DNA of 35,515 nt from Deltaproteobacteria bacterium (GTDB lineage: Bacteria > Desulfobacterota > Dissulfuribacteria > Dissulfuribacterales > Sh68), in the NCBI GenBank assembly GCA_021787835.1, contig JAJYLJ010000001.1:32450-67964 (forward strand). Direction: 5' to 3'. Each line of letters starts with the position of its first letter. The first letter of the stretch is position 1. The notes under the pieces were generated by a model. The model was not told where the DNA came from and did no database searches. It saw only the letters and a list, made by a program, of their open reading frames with translations. The position numbers and the translations under genes are program-made. Shown here piece after piece: positions 1,839 through 10,200 of the stretch.

Positions 1839-2264
1839 CTAACTATTAGGGAATATGCCCGAGGAATTATATGCATTACAAACCTTTCTTTTCTCCAGGG
1901 GACACTTAACTATATTCCAGCATGCCATATACTGCAAGAGTCTCTTGAGCCCTGCAATGCTGACCCCGTGGTCATGTATCATGGACCTCAAACACATTAT
2001 CCACTGGATGTCATTCAACGAATAATAACGCCTCTGGCCCTTGCGAAAAGGCTTGATCAACTTTTCATTTTCATAGATCCGAAGGGTCCGCGGATGTATT
2101 TCAAGCATTACAGCCGCAACACCAATGGAGAAAACCGACTTATCGGGGTCAACATTGTTAACCGGCTGCCATAACAACCCGGCTTCGTCAGGGACAAATC
2201 CCGCGCCGGTGCGCCCATCTTCCTTTTGTATATCTACCGCAATGATAGGTGCCATTGGTGTCAT
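1839..2264 (-). CDS. HspR-like MerR-family transcriptional regulator with Cys tail (copy A)
   Basis: A predicted 141-residue DNA-binding protein. An unusual N-terminal stretch of about 44 residues is followed by a MerR-type winged helix: IGVAA, then HPRTLRIYE, RRYYS and NDIQW, the layout of HspR/MerR repressors. The C-terminal part carries ACWNIVKCP and a further Cys, a CW-x4-CP type motif that could bind metal or sense redox state. It is a paralogue of the protein encoded at 4579-4947; about half of the core residues are identical. The gene is downstream of nrfD and reads the same way. An AAGGAT box lies only 2 nt before the first ATG, so the start may be the ATG three codons in. No chaperone genes are nearby, so a classical heat-shock HspR role is not supported. 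Confidence 0.75.
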   Translation of the reverse strand: MTPMAPIIAVDIQKEDGRTGAGFVPDEAGLLWQPVNNVDPDKSVFSIGVAAVMLEIHPRTLRIYENEKLIKPFRKGQRRYYSLNDIQWIMCLRSMIHDHGVSIAGLKRLLQYMACWNIVKCPLEKRKVCNAYNSSGIFPNS

Positions 2265-2313
2265 ATCCTTTCTGCTATCTAATATCTAAGCCTGCGCGAC
2301 CCTTCTCTATGCC

Positions 2314-2349
2314 GGATATGCGAAGGGGCCGCGCACCCTCCGCATATCC
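2314..2349. repeat. Long hairpin between nrfD and MerR copy A
   Basis: GGATATGCG (2314-2322) pairs perfectly with CGCATATCC (2341-2349). After one A/C mismatch, four more pairs form (AGGG 2324-2327 with CCCT 2336-2339), leaving an 8-nt loop. It lies just after the nrfD stop on that gene's strand. There is no T-run after it on either strand, so it is not a standard intrinsic terminator. It may be an mRNA 3'-end stabiliser or processing structure, or an operator. Confidence 0.5.
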
Positions 2350-2375
2350 TTAAGCCTACGGTCCGATCTTTTAAT

Positions 2376-3560
2376 TTAATGATGCGCCGTGTGACGGAAT
2401 ACCTTGCCAAACAACCTTTCGCCGACCAGGAAACCGGCAAATGCCAAACCAATGCCGCCCAACACAACCATAAGCTCGCCAGCGGATGGGCCATATCCAA
2501 GATAGTTCGGCAGGTTATTCCACCCGTAAAAAACAGGTACCTGGTGGCCCGCCACAACAAGGTCATACCTCTGGAAAAAACCGCCCACAAGGACCATGAG
2601 GGATGCTGCCGACATGGCGGCAATGCTTTTCATGCGGGTGAAAACCAATACCGCCATCGGGATAACCATGCCTACAGCCACCTCGAAGAGCCAAAAATTG
2701 GTTGCAAGCGGCCCCTTCAACAGATGATCCGAGGCAATCATCCCTAGTTCAGACCCGCCCGTATACAATGAAACAAACCTCCACACCGTGGCGACAGCCA
2801 GGAGGAAAATGGTCAGCAGAAGTATCTTGCCGGCGCTTACAAGGCCTGCCATGGTGCCTGCATCCACTTCCTCACCCTTTAATTTATAGGATATGTGGGT
2901 GAAAAATATTATTGCGGCTGCGCCAGACATCACCGCCGCGCACAGAAAATACACCGGCAACTGCGCGCCATACCAGAATGGACGGGCCGCAAGCGTGGCG
3001 AATACGGCCCCTAGGTTTGTGTTCGCTCCGACTTCAGACAAGGCGCCTACCGAACCTATAGCTAGGGCTATGCCGAATCTGCCGGTAAGTATCGCAAGAA
3101 ATTCGACCAGCATGCAGCCCACCGCCAGGCCATAGAGGGTACCCATCCACCAGATATTGGATGTAAGATTCGGAGAAATAACATTATAAACGAGCATGCG
3201 CCACGGGCTCTCAAGCTCAAGACCTATCACTGAAAAAGCGGCCAGTATCGTCACGATGGAAAGAAACACCGCCCGGTTGCCGAGAGGGGCTATGGGCGTC
3301 CCGCCAAATGCGTGGCCGATCGCGGCCAAAAGGCACAGCCCTGTGGATGTAATGGCGAAAAAGGCATAGGTGGAGATCAGTATGCCCCACGGGACCTCCC
3401 TTGTCACCGCATAGAGCTTATCGTGCCCCACAAAAAAACCAGCAACCCCGGTTCCAAGCCCTGCCGCCATAAATAATAGCGATAAGAGAGCTAACTTGTT
3501 GACCGCCGGCCCGGCCATTCTTGGTTCGGCCAACGCTCCAATAGATACATTCGCGTCCAT
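2376..3560 (-). CDS. NrfD/PsrC-family integral membrane quinol oxidoreductase subunit (stand-alone)
   Basis: A 394-residue, very hydrophobic protein with about nine to ten membrane spans and the family hallmarks: VPWGILISTYAFF at about 56-68, SPWR near 120, and a conserved C-terminal span ending in charged residues. NrfD/PsrC/DsrP-type proteins exchange electrons with the quinone pool and normally work with an Fe-S and a catalytic or cytochrome subunit. No such partner is encoded in this window, so its electron donor or acceptor is unknown; sulfur or polysulfide metabolism is a guess from family and setting. The start is well supported by AAGGAGG about 7 nt upstream of the ATG. Only 43 bp separate it from the small gene upstream, so it is probably read from the sigma-54 promoter at 4053-4068. 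Confidence 0.85.
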   Translation of the reverse strand: MDANVSIGALAEPRMAGPAVNKLALLSLLFMAAGLGTGVAGFFVGHDKLYAVTREVPWGILISTYAFFAITSTGLCLLAAIGHAFGGTPIAPLGNRAVFLSIVTILAAFSVIGLELESPWRMLVYNVISPNLTSNIWWMGTLYGLAVGCMLVEFLAILTGRFGIALAIGSVGALSEVGANTNLGAVFATLAARPFWYGAQLPVYFLCAAVMSGAAAIIFFTHISYKLKGEEVDAGTMAGLVSAGKILLLTIFLLAVATVWRFVSLYTGGSELGMIASDHLLKGPLATNFWLFEVAVGMVIPMAVLVFTRMKSIAAMSAASLMVLVGGFFQRYDLVVAGHQVPVFYGWNNLPNYLGYGPSAGELMVVLGGIGLAFAGFLVGERLFGKVFRHTAHH

Positions 3561-3603
3561 TTTAGTGTCCTCCTTGATTTAAGTTATATTTTTAAATGCC
3601 GTT

Positions 3604-3840
3604 CTATTCGCAAGATTTAAACGGTTCATCTATTTCATTATCATAGTTATCTTTTGCAAGTGATATTACTCCGAATAAAACAGCTAAAGCTGAAAATGGA
3701 CCAAGCATGAGAAATAAAATAAATGATGTAGTAAACCAAAAAGCTTCACTAAGTCTGAAGTCATCATCTTTACTTCTTGATCTAGATTCATCCTTTCTGT
3801 ACAAATTTATCTTTTGAGCTAATAATGTTAGAGTTATCAT
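3604..3840 (-). CDS. Small AT-rich membrane protein (hypothetical, 78 aa)
   Basis: No family is recognised. The protein has a charged N-terminal third rich in Arg, Lys, Ser and Asp, then a hydrophobic segment at about 33-62 that could form one long or two short spans, and an acidic tail ending CE. The start is supported by a clear AAAGGAG 6-7 nt before the ATG. It overlaps the 3' end of the upstream small gene by 53 bp in another frame, suggesting coupled translation. It is followed after 43 bp by nrfD. The DNA is much more AT-rich than the flanking genes, so it may be acquired, or the stretch may be under unusual selection. An accessory subunit of the NrfD protein is possible but unproven. 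Confidence 0.55.
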   Translation of the reverse strand: MITLTLLAQKINLYRKDESRSRSKDDDFRLSEAFWFTTSFILFLMLGPFSALAVLFGVISLAKDNYDNEIDEPFKSCE

Positions 3841-3997
3841 TGTCTGCTCCTTTCATATATTTCATATAATAATTTGTCCACATCCCTATCAATACGCAGC
3901 AAAACAACAGTGTTGGTCCAATAGATGATTGACTAAATATTGCAGATGAAAACATACCAATCAATGCACATATAAATAATGATTTTAAATTAGTCAT
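3788..3997 (-). CDS. Small AT-rich membrane protein (hypothetical, 69 aa)
   Basis: No family is recognised. Two hydrophobic segments at about residues 6-23 and 29-48 are followed by a polar tail rich in Lys, Asp and Asn, giving a likely two-span inner-membrane protein. The chosen ATG at 3997 has AGGAAA 6 nt upstream; a GTG five codons earlier is less likely because it would lie inside that ribosome-binding site. The start is about 45 nt downstream of the transcription start predicted from the sigma-54 promoter at 4053-4068, so this is the first gene of the proposed operon with the 78-aa protein and nrfD. Base composition is strongly AT-rich. Confidence 0.55.
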   Translation of the reverse strand: MTNLKSLFICALIGMFSSAIFSQSSIGPTLLFCCVLIGMWTNYYMKYMKGADNDNSNIISSKDKFVQKG

Positions 3998-4052
3998 TGC
4001 CTGTTTCCTCACTACTATTTATATAGATGCTATATATTCGCAAGTTATATAG

Positions 4053-4068
4053 TGCAAATTAAATGCCA
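4053..4068 (-). promoter_or_regulatory. Sigma-54 (RpoN) -24/-12 promoter
   Basis: Reading the minus strand from 4068 to 4053 gives TGGCATTTAATTTGCA. Against the consensus TGGCACG-N4-TTGCA, the -24 TGGCA and the -12 TTGCA are exact and the GG-to-GC spacing is exact; only the two consensus bases CG after TGGCA differ. The predicted transcript start is near 4042, about 45 nt before the 69-aa gene. A sigma-54 activator is encoded nearby at 4917-7037. This is a strong match by eye. Confidence 0.75.
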
Positions 4069-4085
4069 TGATATTAAACTTATCA
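4069..4085. promoter_or_regulatory. Dyad TGATA-N7-TATCA, copy 1 (operator candidate)
   Basis: TGATATTAAACTTATCA directly abuts the upstream edge of the sigma-54 promoter. It differs at only two bases from a second 17-bp copy at 4165-4181, 96 bp away (about nine helical turns). A protein bound here would touch the -24 side of the promoter. The 7-nt spacer matches the layout of HspR-type HAIR elements. Confidence 0.5.
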
Positions 4086-4163
4086 TCAAGCAAGGGATTT
4101 TATAGATGATTTTGTTGTTAAAATAAGCTGTTAGTTATTACTAAAGAATTTTAATAAATTAAT

Positions 4164-4182
4164 TTGATATTAAGATTATCAA
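4164..4182. promoter_or_regulatory. Dyad TTGATA-N7-TATCAA, copy 2 (operator or upstream activator site)
   Basis: Perfect 6-bp arms with a 7-nt spacer; its core TGATATTAAGATTATCA nearly repeats copy 1. It lies about 120-140 bp upstream of the predicted sigma-54 start, a usual distance for an enhancer-binding activator site. The TTGA-N11-TCAA spacing equals that of the HspR HAIR consensus CTTGAGT-N7-ACTCAAG. Which of the local regulators binds cannot be told from sequence. Confidence 0.5.
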
Positions 4183-4278
4183 TAAAAATATAAAAATTAG
4201 ACGCATAATGCGCTCTGATTTAAAATAACTAATACTTAATTTGCGCCTGTTTTTTTATTTATTGCCATAAAAAACCAC

Positions 4279-4297
4279 TCGAGAATTTCTGTCTCGA
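4279..4297. promoter_or_regulatory. HAIR-like dyad TCGAGA-N7-TCTCGA
   Basis: Perfect 6-bp arms with a 7-nt spacer, closest of the three dyads to the published HspR site CTTGAGT-N7-ACTCAAG (here CTCGAGA-N7-TCTCGAA). It is GC-richer than its surroundings, which makes it stand out. It is a candidate operator for the HspR-like proteins encoded at 1839-2264 and 4579-4947. Confidence 0.45.
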
Positions 4298-4504
4298 AAT
4301 ATTTATCCAGGATCCAGAACCAGTTTTTTGAAAATGAAAGATATCCCTTGAACAGGCCGCCAGAAAATTATTGTTTGAGTGTGTTTAATGCAGGAATTAT
4401 AAAAAAGGTGCAAAGAAACAAAAAAATATCTTTTTAAATCATGTAATATTTTAATTTTATGAATTAATTAAGGATTATTGCGAGCAAGGCAAAATTCGAT
4501 CAAG

Positions 4505-4537
4505 AATATTGACAATTTTAATATTCAATATTAAAGA
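4505..4537 (+). promoter_or_regulatory. Promoter with nested dyads upstream of MerR copy B
   Basis: A perfect -35 hexamer TTGACA is at 4509-4514, with a weak -10 TAAAGA at 4532-4537 (17-bp spacer). Two overlapping inverted repeats cover it: AATATTGA-N12-TCAATATT (4505-4532) and TTTAATATT-C-AATATTAAA (4517-4535). A dyad between the -35 and -10 boxes is the layout of MerR-controlled promoters, so autoregulation of the downstream gene is plausible. Confidence 0.4.
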
Positions 4538-4578
4538 AATTAATAAGTATAAGTTTTTGAAAAATTAAAAATATAAAG

Positions 4579-4947
4579 ATGATAAAAACAAGGGCCAAAA
4601 AACAAAATATATTGCCTGATGCGCAAACGCCCGTATACCCCATAGGGGTTGCGGCCCGTATGATAGGCGTACATCCAAGAACGCTTCGCATCTATGAGGC
4701 CGAGGGTCTCTTTAGGCCCCAATACAGCGGAGCACGGAGGCTATATTCTCAAAATGACATTCAATGGATTACATGCCTGCGGACGCTGATCCATGAAGAC
4801 GGCATAAGCATACCCGGCATAAGGCGTCTTTTGGATGTCATGCCCTGCTGGGAAGTGGCCGGGTGCCCGCCCGACATACACGAGACATGCGAGGCGAAGG
4901 TTGACTTTTCCATGAATCATTCATCTTCCGGAATATCGAGGCCATAA
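4579..4947 (+). CDS. HspR-like MerR-family transcriptional regulator with Cys tail (copy B)
   Basis: A 122-residue regulator with a MerR/HspR winged helix from about residue 22: IGVAARMIGVHPRTLRIYE, then GARRLYS and NDIQW, followed by the HEDGISIPGIRRLL helix. The tail has PCWEVAGCP plus one further Cys, the same CW-x4-CP type motif as its paralogue at 1839-2264, and no separate ligand domain. The start lacks a strong ribosome-binding site; AAAAATATAAAG precedes the ATG. Its last 31 bp overlap, tail to tail, the end of the sigma-54 activator gene. It sits opposite the small-membrane-gene/nrfD operon and is likely one of its regulators. The Cys motif suggests metal, Fe-S or thiol sensing, which is inference. 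Confidence 0.78.
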   Translation: MIKTRAKKQNILPDAQTPVYPIGVAARMIGVHPRTLRIYEAEGLFRPQYSGARRLYSQNDIQWITCLRTLIHEDGISIPGIRRLLDVMPCWEVAGCPPDIHETCEAKVDFSMNHSSSGISRP

Positions 4948-7037
4948 CGCTGTATCTTGCGCCTCAAGGTGTCCTTTGATATACCAAGTTCCCTGCACGT
5001 GGCAAGACGCCGCCAGTTATTGTGCTCAAGCGCCCCGATAATCGCAAGCTTTTCTATCTCATCGAGGCTGACGGATTTATTCAACCCTAAGACCGCGGGT
5101 TCGTCCCCCGTCATTTTTTGAGAAAACGGCTCCGGCAGGTGCTCAGGCTGGATAAGCCCGTCGTGGCACAAAATAAATGCGTATTCGATTATATTCTCAA
5201 GCTCGCGTATATTGCCCGGGAAATCATACTGCATAAGCTTCCCGAGCGCATCCTGGGATATGCCCGTTATCGCCTTGCCCTGCTGTGCGTCAAACTTGCC
5301 TATGAAGTGTTCAACCAATAAAGGTATGTCTTCCTTGCGCTCTCTAAGGGGCGGAAGCTGTATCTTTACGACATTCAGACGATAATAGAGATCCTCCCTG
5401 AATCTGCCGTCCTTTACAAGAGTCTCGATATTACGGTTGGTGGCGGCAAGTATCCTCACATCGGCCTGAACAGACCTGTTGGAGCCCAAAGGTTCATAGA
5501 CCCTGCCCTGAATCACCCTTAGCAGCTTGACCTGCAGGGCCTGGGATATATCCCCTATCTCATCCAGGAACATGGTCCCCTTCTCGGCTGCCGCAAAACG
5601 GCCCTGCCTATCTTTCTTTGCATCCGTAAAGGCCCCTGCCTTATAACCAAAGAGTTCGGATTCAAGAAGCGTATCAGGAAGCGCCCCACAGTTCACGGCC
5701 ACAAACGGCCCTTTCATGCGCCGGCTGAAATTGTGAATCGCCCTCGCCACAAGCTCCTTGCCTGTCCCGCTTTCGCCCAGTATGAGCACGTTGCTTTCAC
5801 TTCTTGCTATGTCAGGCAGAATATCGAATATGCGTTTCATTACGTTGCTTTTGCTTATTATGTCGCCGAATGTATATCTTTTTGTAAGCTCCTTTCGAAG
5901 CGTCATAATAGCGCTTATGTCCCTGAATGTCTCGACGCCGCCTACCACGTCTCCATTGTTGTCCAGGAGCGGGGCGGCGCTTATGCTTATTGGGATCCTT
6001 TTCCCGTCCGAACGCCTAATAAAGACCGATTTATTCGATGTCTGGATCTTTGTGGTTATACTTCGCGCAAGCACGCAATTCTCTCCACAGATACTTGACT
6101 GAAATATGTCATGACATTGCTTGCCAATGGCCTCGGCCTCGGGATAACCTGTGATATGCTCTGCCGCCCGGTTAAACGATGTAATCCGCCAGTCCTTGTC
6201 CACTGTAAATACGCCGTCGGCTATGCTGTTAAGGATCAATTTCCGTTCTATTTCAGAGGTGATGTCCCTGAATGTCTCGACGCCGCCTATCACGTCTCCG
6301 TTGTTGTCCAGGAGCGGGGCGGCGCTTATGCTTATGGGCACGCTGCGTCCGTCCCGCCTCTTTATAAAAATGGTTTCATTGATTATGGGCCTTCGCATCT
6401 CGATGCTTTTGGCCAGGATACATCCGCCCTGGCATGTATCCGCGCTGAACATATAGCATTGCGATATCTGTCCGAGCGCCTTTTGGATATATCCGGATGC
6501 GCAAACATTGGAATGAAATACCTCGCTGCATATATTCCCGATTGCCTCATTCCTTGACCAGCCGGTAATTTTTTCGGCCGAGAGATTAAAAGAGGTGATG
6601 CGCCAGTCCTTGTCCACGGTGAATACGCCGTCGGCTATGCTGTCAAGAAGCAACTCCGAGATGACGCTTTCATCCGAGGCATTTCTTATGAGCGCCACGG
6701 CGCCGTCGAAGCCCCCGGTCTCATTGAAGCATGGAAGAATGGTCATAAATATATCATGCTCTTTGCCGTTAGAGACATCCGCCGACAAGACGCAGGGGCA
6801 GTTGTGGAATATGCGGCCAGCCTCAAGGGCCTCGCATAGATGGAATTCGGACTCGACAAATTTCCCCATGAATATTGACTGCAAGTCAACGCCTATTAAA
6901 TCTTCAAACTTAAGGCCAGTGAGCCTCTTTGCAGCCTCGTTGAAGTAGATGATCTTGCACTTGGCGCTTAAAATAAACAAGGCGTCGGTTGTTGACCCTG
7001 CCTTCAGACATTGTGACCGCTCTTTATGATCTTCCAT
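4917..7037 (-). CDS. Sigma-54-dependent activator with three PAS domains
   Basis: A 706-residue bacterial enhancer-binding protein. PAS domains lie at about 13-120, 127-260 and 265-375. The AAA+ domain covers about 385-620, with Walker A GESGTGKE (421-428), Walker B LDEIGD (491-496) and the sigma-54 contact loop as GAFTDA (468-473) instead of the usual GAFTGA. A Fis-type helix-turn-helix is at about 672-700. There is no receiver domain, so it senses directly through PAS. Cysteines cluster at equivalent places in PAS2 (170, 179, 202, 206) and PAS3 (308, 317, 321), which suggests a metal, Fe-S or redox sensor. It probably activates the sigma-54 promoter at 4053-4068. The ribosome-binding site is weak. 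Confidence 0.93.
5917..5990. repeat. Direct repeat within the PAS3 coding part (partner 6262-6335)
   Basis: These 74 bp match 6262-6335 with two differences seen by eye. Both encode the [15 protein letters not shown][11 protein letters not shown] segment, in PAS3 and PAS2 respectively. Near identity at DNA level, including third codon positions, points to a recent duplication or gene conversion between PAS units. Confidence 0.85.
6187..6229. repeat. Direct repeat within the PAS coding part (partner 6601-6643)
   Basis: These 43 bp match 6601-6643 with two differences. Both encode the start of a PAS unit ([16 protein letters not shown]). Together with the 74-bp pair it brackets a duplicated module of about 345-415 bp. 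Confidence 0.85.
6262..6335. repeat. Direct repeat within the PAS2 coding part (partner 5917-5990)
   Basis: Second copy of the 74-bp repeat, encoding the last strands of PAS2. Confidence 0.85.
6601..6643. repeat. Direct repeat at the PAS2 start (partner 6187-6229)
   Basis: Second copy of the 43-bp repeat, encoding the first strands of PAS2. Confidence 0.85.
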
Positions 7038-7219: not shown

Positions 7220-10200
7220 ATGAAATTGACGGAACTGCTATCAAAAATAGAGGGGCATAAAAAAATTCTCAAACTGGCCGGTCTCCGCGGAAACGTGCAA
7301 TCATGGCTCATCGCGAGGCTGGCTAGGGGCCTTGAGCGCCCTATCGTGTTGATTACGGACGGGCCGGAAAGGGCCGGGAGGGCAGGCTCTGATCTTTCTT
7401 TTTTTACTGACGCCCCAATACTTATATATCAGCGCCACGACTCTCCGCCTTTTACTCCCATAGTCCCTTCTCATGAAACAATGGCGGAGCGCGTCTCAAC
7501 ACTGTACCGGATGACGGCACTCGGCGGCCCGTATATTGCCGTGGTCCCGATACAGGCCCTCTTAGAGTTTACAATCCAGAGGGATGTGCTCATGAAATAC
7601 CCGGAATACATAGAAGAGGGGGAAAGGACGGACAGGGATGCCCTGATCTCATGGCTCATAAAAACAGGTTATGATCGGACGTCCAGCGTGAGATCACGCG
7701 GTGAATTCAATGTGCGGGGCGGCATACTCGATGTCTTTCCGCCATCCACGGCATACCCTGTAAGAATAGATTTCTTTGGGGACACGGTTGAAGAGATGCG
7801 CCTTTTTGATCCTGCCTCTCAACGCTCGGTTGACAAAATCAAGGACCTGACGCTCCTGCCGGCCGGGGAGATAATATTTGACGAAGATATTGCGGACAAC
7901 GCACAAAAAGAGATCTTAAGGCGCGCCAAGGACTTTGACTGGTCCTCCAAAAGGCTTAACGAGACACTTCACCAGATTGAATCAAAGAGACTTGGCGAGG
8001 GTCTGCTCACTCTAATGCCGCTATTTTACCGGCCGCCTTCATCCATTAGAGACTATATACGCCAGGACAGTCTGCTGGCGCTCGAAGAACCCGATGCGCT
8101 CATGCGCAGCCTCGAGGCCTTCACCAAAGATGCACGGGAAGGCTATGAGATAGCGCTAAGAGACATGAAGGTCTTGAGCCCGTTAAAGGAACTCGTCGTC
8201 CCGGAGGAGACCATAAAGGCATGGATAAGAGACCGGGCCGGCCTCATCTTGAGCGGCATGGATATAGAACCGCACTACAGCGAACGCCCGTTTGGAATCC
8301 ATCCTTCAGACATCGAGACGATGACGTTCGAGACATTGATACCGGATCTTCCGCCTGTAATAAAAAACGCAAAAAAAGGGGGGGATCTGCTCGGGCCTGT
8401 GTTTGAAAGGCTTAAGTCGTGGGTTGACAATGGATCAAGGGTGATCATATCCACACCCGGCGAAAGGCGTGGGAAAAAACTGCTCGAACTCTTCAGTCTC
8501 TATGACTGGATGGCGGATTTCGGCTCAACACCAATAAAAGAAGCCCCTGTCATCGAAGACCATGCAGGGGCCGGGCTTGAAATATACTGTGGAGGCCTTT
8601 CCTCGGGTTTTTCACTTCCATCATATTCCCTCGTGGTTATAACAGAGGATGAAATCATCGGGTCGATGGCGCATTCAAGGGAGCCGTCCAGAAAAAAGAA
8701 AAGGACGAAATTCGAAGAGATAGCCTTTGAGGAGCTTAGGCCCGGCGACTTCGTGGTCCACAGGGACCACGGCATCGGAATATATAAAGGGCTTGTAAGA
8801 CTGACGGCGGCCGGCGTGCCAGGCGAATATCTCCATCTTGAATACAGGGATCAGGACAAGCTCTATCTGCCGGTTGACCGCCTTGAGCTCATTCAACACT
8901 ATGCAGGGATAGAAGGTAAGGAGCCAAGGCTTGACAGGCTCTGCGGCTCAACATGGCAACTCGTGAAACAAAAGGTGAAAAAGGCCGTTCATGAAGTCGC
9001 CCACGAGCTTGTCGAGCTCTACGCCGAGAGAATGGTCAGGAATGGTCACGCCTTTTCGCCTCCGGATGCAATCTTCAGGCAATTCGAGGCCTCTTTCCCG
9101 CATGAAGAGACCGACGACCAGGCCGCATCCGTGGAAGAAATAATTTCTGACATGGAAAAACCAAGACCAATGGACAGACTCCTGTGCGGAGACGTCGGCT
9201 ACGGCAAAACCGAGGTCGCCATGAGGGCAGCCTTCAAGGCCGCGGAAGATGGTAAGCAGACGGCGGTCCTGGTCCCGACTACACTTCTTGCCGAACAGCA
9301 CGAAAGGACGTTCAGGCAGAGATTCTCGAAATTCCCGGTGGACATAGCTGCGCTTAGCAGGCTTAAGTCTAGACAGGATCAAAAAGAGATACTGAAAAAG
9401 ACCGAAGAGGGCGCGATAGACATACTGATAGGCACACACAGGCTTCTGCACTCCGATGTGCGCTTTAAGGACCTCGGCCTCCTTATAATAGACGAGGAAC
9501 ACCGTTTCGGCGTAAGGCACAAGGAACGCCTGAAAAGACTTAAACAGACTGTGGACTGCCTGACCCTGACCGCGACGCCCATCCCAAGGACGCTCCAGCT
9601 TTCCCTCCTCGGGCTGAGGGATATGTCGGTCATAAACACGCCCCCTGGGGAACGCCTGCCGGTGAAGACCTATCTTGCGGAATTTGATGAGTCACTAATC
9701 AGAGATGCCATAAACAGGGAAATCAACAGAAACGGACAGGTGTTCTTTGTTCATAACAAGGTGAAGGGGATAGAGCGGATCGCAGACCACATCAGGAGGC
9801 TTGTCCCGGGGGCGCGGGTAGAAACGGCCCACGGCCAGATGGACGCAGAGGCCCTTGAAGACATCATGATCCGCTTCGTGAGGGGAGAAATAGACTGTCT
9901 GGCCTGCACCACCATAATTGAATCAGGCATAGACATACCCTCGGCCAACACCATGATAATCGACAGGGCCGATTCCCTTGGGATAGCCGATCTTTATCAA
10001 CTCAGGGGGAGGGTCGGAAGATCGAATGAACAGGCATACTGCTATCTTATGGTCCCGCGCATAGGGGATCTCGCGCAAGAACCGGCCAAAAGACTCAAGG
10101 CCGTCATGGACGCCACCACATCGGGCGGCGGTTTCAGGCTGGCCATGGAAGACCTAAGATTAAGGGGCGCCGGAAACATCGTAGGCGTTTCCCAGTCCGG

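Follow-up and report, generated by a model that had tools for sequence, protein, structure and literature searches.

Sulfate-reducing and sulfur-disproportionating bacteria conserve much of their energy through complexes with NrfD-type subunits, and little is known about the choice between them. In sulfate reducers, QrcABCD acts as a cytochrome c3:menaquinone oxidoreductase (PMC13059093). The TMH1-DsrOhPh-tetrahaem locus of cable bacteria has distal iron-sulfur (Fe-S), NrfD and cytochrome genes and a one-helix small protein; it is described as tetrahaem and closest to that of beta- and gammaproteobacteria, with no regulators reported (PMC13047784). For Desulfurivibrio alkaliphilus, "putative nrfC and nrfD genes" without induction by nitrate are reported (PMC5516251). 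Here, we analyzed a stretch of 35,515 nucleotides (the window, G000:C142:32450-67964) from a deltaproteobacterial genome assembly (2.03 Mb, 190 contigs, 88% complete), in which an island at positions 1839 to 7037 encodes an NrfD-type membrane subunit, NrfD-B, together with its putative regulators. The island makes up one half of a gene module that is conserved among sulfur-cycling bacteria and, it seems, has not been described before; the D. alkaliphilus pair may belong to it. A literature search for NrfD with MerR and sigma-54, or for a MerR family with cytochrome c3, found nothing, with subscription journals largely outside its reach.

In the reading that we put forward, to which we give an even chance, NrfD-B (with the small protein sm1) would be an inducible alternative quinone subunit for an Fe-S/cytochrome arm shared with a paralogue, NrfD-A. 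Quinone-subunit exchange under sigma-54 control would be the simplest account of a single redox arm alongside two NrfD clades that differ in promoter class. The original prediction had named a stand-alone NrfD protein, two tiny membrane proteins, a near-consensus sigma-54 promoter, a three-PAS sigma-54 activator, and two paralogous HspR-like MerR regulators at the flanks, and each of these parts is present where it had been placed:

1839-2264, minus strand: MerR1, a MerR-type DNA-binding half (Pfam MerR_1, 1.3e-13) and a C-terminal four-Cys domain (C91, C115-W116, C121, C129)
2376-3560, minus strand: NrfD-B, a quinone-type polytopic membrane subunit of the NrfD/PsrC family (PF03916, E=5.9e-26)
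3604-3840, minus strand: sm1, a conserved small membrane protein and putative NrfD-B accessory, consensus SEAFWF..F.LFL.LGPFSAIAV..GL.SLA...EP
3788-3997, minus strand: sm2, an orphan hydrophobic open reading frame (ORF) of 69 residues between the promoter and sm1, with a possible GTG start at 4012
4053-4068, minus strand: predicted sigma-54 -24/-12 promoter of sm2-sm1-NrfD-B-MerR1, TGGCATTTAATTTGCA, matching 11 of 12 consensus positions
4199-4215, minus strand: proximal predicted regulator site, palindrome GAGCGCATTATGCGTCT, centred 139 bp upstream of the -24 element, matrix score 19.2
4232-4248, minus strand: distal, weaker predicted site, palindrome AGGCGCAAATTAAGTAT, 33 bp further upstream (-172), score 10.2
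4579-4947, plus strand: MerR2, a MerR1 paralogue (Pfam MerR_1, 8.6e-17), the partner of NrfD-A in relatives and here left without it
4917-7037, minus strand: sigma-54 activator with three PAS domains (PAS_9 in three stretches), an AAA+ domain, and a Fis-type helix-turn-helix, the presumed activator of the NrfD-B promoter

Reading from the promoter, the minus strand carries sm2, sm1, NrfD-B, and MerR1 in that order. MerR2 is divergent from them, and the activator converges on MerR2, which overlaps its 3' end by 31 bp. Housekeeping genes flank the block, hisG and an engB-like GTPase on one side and an Mfd-like helicase on the other.

NrfD-B, its paralogue, and a putatively shared redox arm

Relatives were collected by scanning 84,980 species genomes, which gave 308; the 76 best loci (52 to 76% identity) come from metagenome-assembled genomes and isolates of Desulfobulbaceae and related "Deltaproteobacteria." A second sample, obtained by independent genome searches for sm1 and NrfD-like proteins, comprised 46 genomes of the class. 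We also used a sister genome (G001) of the same family as the window's genome, assembled as one contig of 2,025,450 bp. ORF calling was mechanical; since the loci share kinship, the counts given below are not independent events, and the shuffle controls cover base composition, not shared ancestry.

Across the relatives, NrfD-B homologues occurred mainly with the neighbours seen in the window. Of 84 testable cases, 75 had a MerR1-type gene directly downstream in the same orientation; sm1 adjoined NrfD-B in 54 of 76 loci, and in 35 of 56 an activator homologue (51 to 65% identity) was encoded no more than 7 kb upstream. The locus comparison thus bears out the earlier proposal of a conserved quinone-type membrane module with dedicated regulators.

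Membership of NrfD-B in PF03916 is clear (92.3 bits against a gathering score of 25.8). Its AlphaFold model has a predicted TM score of 0.88, the residues of the NrfD fold are kept, and Foldseek returned as best match ActC of alternative complex III (TM 0.74 to 0.84), then ActF (0.59 to 0.63) and the menaquinone-bound PsrC structure 2vpw. Three named subunits were tried and rejected at the NCBIfam cut-offs: NrfD of cytochrome c nitrite reductase (35.4 bits against an equivalog cut-off of 347.6), HmcC (23.6 against 550), and DsrP (16 against 350). With these models so far under their cut-offs, NrfD-B belongs to the NrfD family but outside these named complexes.

The second paralogue, NrfD-A, is ca. 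45% identical to NrfD-B, and the two form separate clades (tree support of 100 for B and 87 for A; tree labels such as "Myxococcota", which stem from old "Deltaproteobacteria" record names, were disregarded). Their neighbourhoods differ as well, with a MerR2-type gene behind NrfD-A in 36 of 37 loci and sm1 beside it in none of 36. Instead, directly upstream of NrfD-A in most loci there is a tiny membrane protein of its own, typically of 36 to 41 residues with one helix and the pattern MxGxxFLVxWxxxAxLHTxxDLKxKP, which is missed as an ORF at the usual length limits (for example, L084:6530-6652). Of the 46 genomes in the class sample, 32 had NrfD-like proteins. In both genomes of the window's family, a conserved minus-strand group follows NrfD-A (L086:1861-5131, L084:8347-11712), consisting of two unidentified genes around a short protein resembling universal stress proteins. 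The sister genome has a third NrfD, close to a gene for a cytochrome with 10 CxxCH motifs and adjoined by transposase-like frames (L085:7370-8570).

Of the two tiny membrane proteins of the original prediction, only sm1 belongs to a conserved family. It has 64 homologues, with E32, W35, L42, F43, G47, P48, and F49 invariant in the alignment, and was not found in the protein family libraries searched. It occurs in 24 of the 46 genomes of the class, and among 23 matches at E≤5e-10, ca. 21 were directly upstream of NrfD-B (adjacency read from two result tables). The putative sm2 has, by eye, a good ribosome-binding site; without homologues in any fetched locus, and absent from the sister genome, it was rejected as a conserved protein.

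The redox arm is found beside NrfD-B in most relatives: among 68 loci, 40 have an upstream gene for a twin-arginine translocation (TAT)-type Fe-S protein and 42 have one for a c7-type cytochrome. Of 52 Fe-S proteins, 44 have 16 Cys (range, 16 to 18) and 50 carry a TAT-like motif; the cytochromes have three CxxCH motifs in 35 cases, six in 17, and four in none. Where both NrfD-A and NrfD-B are present, exactly one Fe-S gene and one cytochrome gene were counted in 28 of 37 loci. We take the ancestral locus to have had both NrfD clades and a single pair of this kind. The pair precedes A in some relatives (L130, L016) and B in most Desulfobulbaceae.

In the window's family, the redox arm and NrfD-A are found elsewhere, and NrfD-B, MerR1, MerR2, and the activator remain together. 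At one end of contig C145 of the window's genome, directly after nuoN, there are an intact Fe-S gene (73% identical to its L030 counterpart) and an intact triheme cytochrome gene (79% identical to the sister's); NrfD-A is at the start of contig C56. The sister genome, which has a single close homologue of the cytochrome and a single full-length, close homologue of the Fe-S protein, shows the order nuo genes (named by eye), Fe-S protein, cytochrome, two palindromes, tiny protein, NrfD-A, and MerR. Hence, the claim of a stand-alone NrfD holds locally, where there is no Fe-S partner, but not for the genome, in which the Fe-S protein, the cytochrome, and NrfD-A are encoded on other contigs.

This scattered arrangement could also mean that the island is a decaying remnant with a partnerless, nonfunctional NrfD-B. 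MerR2 without an NrfD-A neighbour, the orphan sm2, and a weak -24 element in the sister genome would fit such decay. We nevertheless find it highly improbable, given that NrfD-B has an intact frame of 394 residues that is 82% identical to the sister's copy; that the MerR cysteines, sm1, the promoter, and the site phasing are all kept; and that the Fe-S and cytochrome genes are intact elsewhere.

Predicted promoter, paired palindromes, and regulators

Within the window alone, the sigma-54 pattern is not above chance (three sites against 1.5 expected), and the strict form TGGCAC-N5-TTGCA has no match in the genome, the predicted site having TGGCAT. The near-consensus promoter of the original prediction is therefore convincing only because it is conserved in relatives, where the 600 bp before NrfD-B contained a site with at least 11 of 12 positions in 56 of 84 cases, against 0.8 expected by dinucleotide shuffling. 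No such site was found in 41 NrfD-A or 50 Fe-S upstream regions. The site was present in 62 of 70 NrfD-B copies with MerR1 and absent in eight of the nine without it (Fisher p = 4e-6). In the sister genome, the -24 box is degraded. NrfD-A, in turn, has a conserved TTGACA-N17 sigma-70-like element (by eye, in two alignments). Some genomes (L010, L013, L015, L036) hold two NrfD-B plus MerR1 units and one NrfD-A plus MerR2 in one 7-kb cluster, with no Fe-S, cytochrome, or activator gene nearby and with a sigma-54 -12 box of the form (A/G)TGCA, not TTGCW.

Upstream of the sigma-54 site, the palindrome GRCGCA-N3-TGCGYC was found with at least 10 of 12 positions in 49 of 59 regions (0.9 expected). 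With a weight matrix built from the same regions as those used to measure spacing, 41 of 59 had at least two palindromes, mostly 33 to 34 bp apart, with centres ca. 140 and 173 bp ahead of the -24 element. A spacing of three helical turns and such a distance from the promoter are typical of the enhancer sites of sigma-54 activators. The sister genome has its palindromes in the same phase (L083:8248, score of 16.6; a partner near 8279 was read by eye). Its two sites (L083:8240-8290) are inverted copies, GGCGCAAAATGATCC ... GGATCATTTTGCGC, so that a hairpin is possible. Promoter and site phasing are kept in the diverged intergenic DNA of NrfD-B relatives down to ca. 52% identity, and the combination of sigma-54 site and phased palindromes is conserved only together with MerR1 and NrfD-B. 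As regulon evidence, the genome-wide palindrome search with two mismatches was uninformative (hundreds of matches), and counts of short 5-mer dyads around the promoter gave nothing general.

Since rpoN is present in the window's genome, element conservation, enhancer-type sites, and RpoN together argue for a predicted sigma-54-dependent promoter. The activator is a member of the NtrC family (Sigma54_activat PF00158, 5.9e-69; HTH_8 PF02954, 5.2e-10), and Pfam located the domains of the three-PAS protein as originally described. In nearly all homologues, the PAS domains carry a C-x3-C motif compatible with redox sensing. From their position, the palindromes would be bound by this activator, but a MerR could also be the binder.

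Several observations weigh against subunit exchange. Nine of the 37 loci with both paralogues have no Fe-S or cytochrome gene nearby, and some genomes have two NrfD-B copies. Palindromes, often paired, also occur ca. 430 to 880 bp upstream of NrfD-A (two in tandem in the sister genome, by the same genome-wide search), although in divergent loci these are NrfD-B's own sites. As there is no sigma-54 site before NrfD-A, the activator may not be their binder. In 28 loci, a span of ca. 9 kb contains the genes for A, B, the Fe-S protein, and the cytochrome. This clustering, together with the palindromes upstream of both paralogues and with best folds that are the two NrfD-like subunits of alternative complex III, would suit the main rival to subunit exchange, in which NrfD-A and NrfD-B sit together in one complex, as ActC and ActF do, sharing one Fe-S and one cytochrome subunit, and the regulators adjust amount or stoichiometry. 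We consider this arrangement unlikely, since the promoter classes of A and B differ, the two genes are unlinked in the window's family, and in length both are closer to ActC than to ActF, in agreement with the TM scores of NrfD-B.

MerR1 and MerR2 are paralogous, as had been proposed (50% identity over 111 amino acids), but only MerR1 is at a flank of the block (1839), MerR2 being between the promoter region and the activator. The description as HspR-like did not hold, because the likeness is confined to the DNA-binding half and the sensor half is a different, four-Cys domain. The two proteins scored 63.2 and 67.8 bits against the NCBIfam equivalog cut-off of 105 for HspR; conversely, with the MerR1/2 profile, other HspR/MerR-type genes of these genomes gave ca. 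40 to 54 bits versus 140 to 196 for the four-Cys family. SoxR was likewise rejected (MerR2, 17.7 bits against a cut-off of 116.9; MerR1 not listed; different from the CxxCxCxxxxxC cluster motif), and all metal-sensor models were under cut-off. The four-Cys domain was not found in the protein family libraries searched. Among 22 aligned MerR1/2 proteins, 14 columns are invariant, including the four Cys (C91, C115, C121, and C129 of MerR1) and two Trp, and 116 of 119 proteins of this type carry the motif CW-x4-C-x(6-9)-C. The invariant Cys naturally suggest a candidate metal or Fe-S site and make redox sensing plausible; of the redox- or sulfur-responsive module proposed earlier, no observation pointed to sulfur as the signal. 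The AlphaFold model of MerR1 is poor in the Cys region (predicted local distance difference test values of ca. 48 to 66), so metal geometry is not readable from it.

Six genomes contain 21 members of the four-Cys family, of which 18 are beside or within ca. 1 kb of an NrfD gene (hand count). A MerR of its own for each NrfD, and the high ratio of regulators to enzyme in the window, could suggest that NrfD-B is mainly a membrane redox sensor of the quinone pool, signalling to MerR1 or to the activator. This we judge improbable: Fe-S and cytochrome genes stand beside NrfD-B in the majority of loci, the fold residues are kept, and genuine respiratory complexes, too, commonly have linked regulators, such as rrf1/rrf2 of the Hmc operon.

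A third four-Cys MerR was observed at L133:8949-12001 (G000:C21), L136:7528-12045 (G003:C7), and L134:8307-8828 (G001). The G003 copy is followed by a third NrfD (NrfD-C), a small membrane protein, and an FtsH-like gene. The copy in the window's genome has no NrfD beside it; at a distance of ca. 1 kb there are two tiny, Gly-rich membrane proteins and an FtsH-like gene.

A proposed mechanism and its comparison with known systems

We propose that the complex would be a periplasm-facing cytochrome c/menaquinone oxidoreductase, with NrfD-B and its accessory sm1 as inducible alternative membrane subunit. The redox arm, a TAT-exported protein that probably has four Fe-S clusters, plus a c7-type cytochrome, usually one pair per locus, would normally pair with NrfD-A as the basal subunit, expressed from the sigma-70-like promoter. 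On sensing its signal, the PAS-containing activator would bind the paired palindromes and turn on sm1-NrfD-B-MerR1, and NrfD-B would then replace or supplement NrfD-A on the shared arm. The invariant four-Cys site of MerR1 and MerR2 may provide a second metal- or redox-sensitive layer, probably autoregulatory. NrfD-B would probably have an activator of its own as its switch and a cysteine-rich regulator of its own for fine control. The Fe-S, cytochrome, and NrfD-A genes of the window's lineage would be located after nuoN, so that NrfD-B, MerR1, MerR2, and the activator stand by themselves.

More tentatively, and with our confidence below even, one periplasmic arm might dock alternately to two NrfD proteins, each with its own tiny protein and four-Cys MerR. 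Equally tentative is the regulatory side of this picture, in which the sigma-54 activator would switch the alternative NrfD according to redox or electron-acceptor state and the MerR proteins would represent a new class of four-cysteine sensors. With promoter, binding sites, and candidate sensors that can be named, the widespread two-NrfD module makes the choice between NrfD complexes testable. It also points to protein families absent from the libraries searched (sm1 and the four-Cys MerR domain) and to the tiny partner of NrfD-A.

Among known regulators, SoxR resembles the module's MerR proteins in combining a MerR DNA-binding half with a C-terminal Cys cluster, but their cysteines are spaced C-x23-CW-x4-C-x7-C and their cluster is putative. 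In the case of alternative complex III (ActABCDEF), the likeness lies in the folds of NrfD-B and in a gene set with two NrfD-type subunits; the difference is that no large ActB gene with a molybdopterin-like domain was seen in the locus, and identity is ca. 16 to 18%. In gene composition, the module has known relatives in QrcABCD, DsrJOP, and the cable-bacteria locus; none of them is described with its MerR or sigma-54 regulators in the passages covered. The cable-bacteria locus resembles the module in its Fe-S, NrfD, and cytochrome genes and its one-helix small protein. By its description it is tetrahaem, whereas the module's cytochromes have three or six CxxCH motifs, which tends to argue against membership. 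DsrJOP of DsrMKJOP shares a triheme periplasmic cytochrome, a TAT Fe-S protein, and an NrfD-type subunit, and the module's Fe-S protein reached 172 bits with the DsrO model, under the cut-off of 200, the DsrP cut-off also being missed; however, no DsrMK was beside the module in the loci examined, and its cytochrome is c7-type. QrcABCD shares a multihaem cytochrome, a four-cluster Fe-S protein, and a periplasm-facing NrfD-type quinone subunit, and the QrcA model weakly matched one extended homologue of the module's proteins. The module as QrcABCD was rejected, with the Fe-S protein at 101 to 103 bits against the QrcC cut-off of 400, and in the loci read there was no QrcB-like (molybdopterin-like) gene between the cytochrome and NrfD. 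What sets the module apart from QrcABCD is its two NrfD paralogues, its dedicated MerR proteins, and its predicted sigma-54 control.

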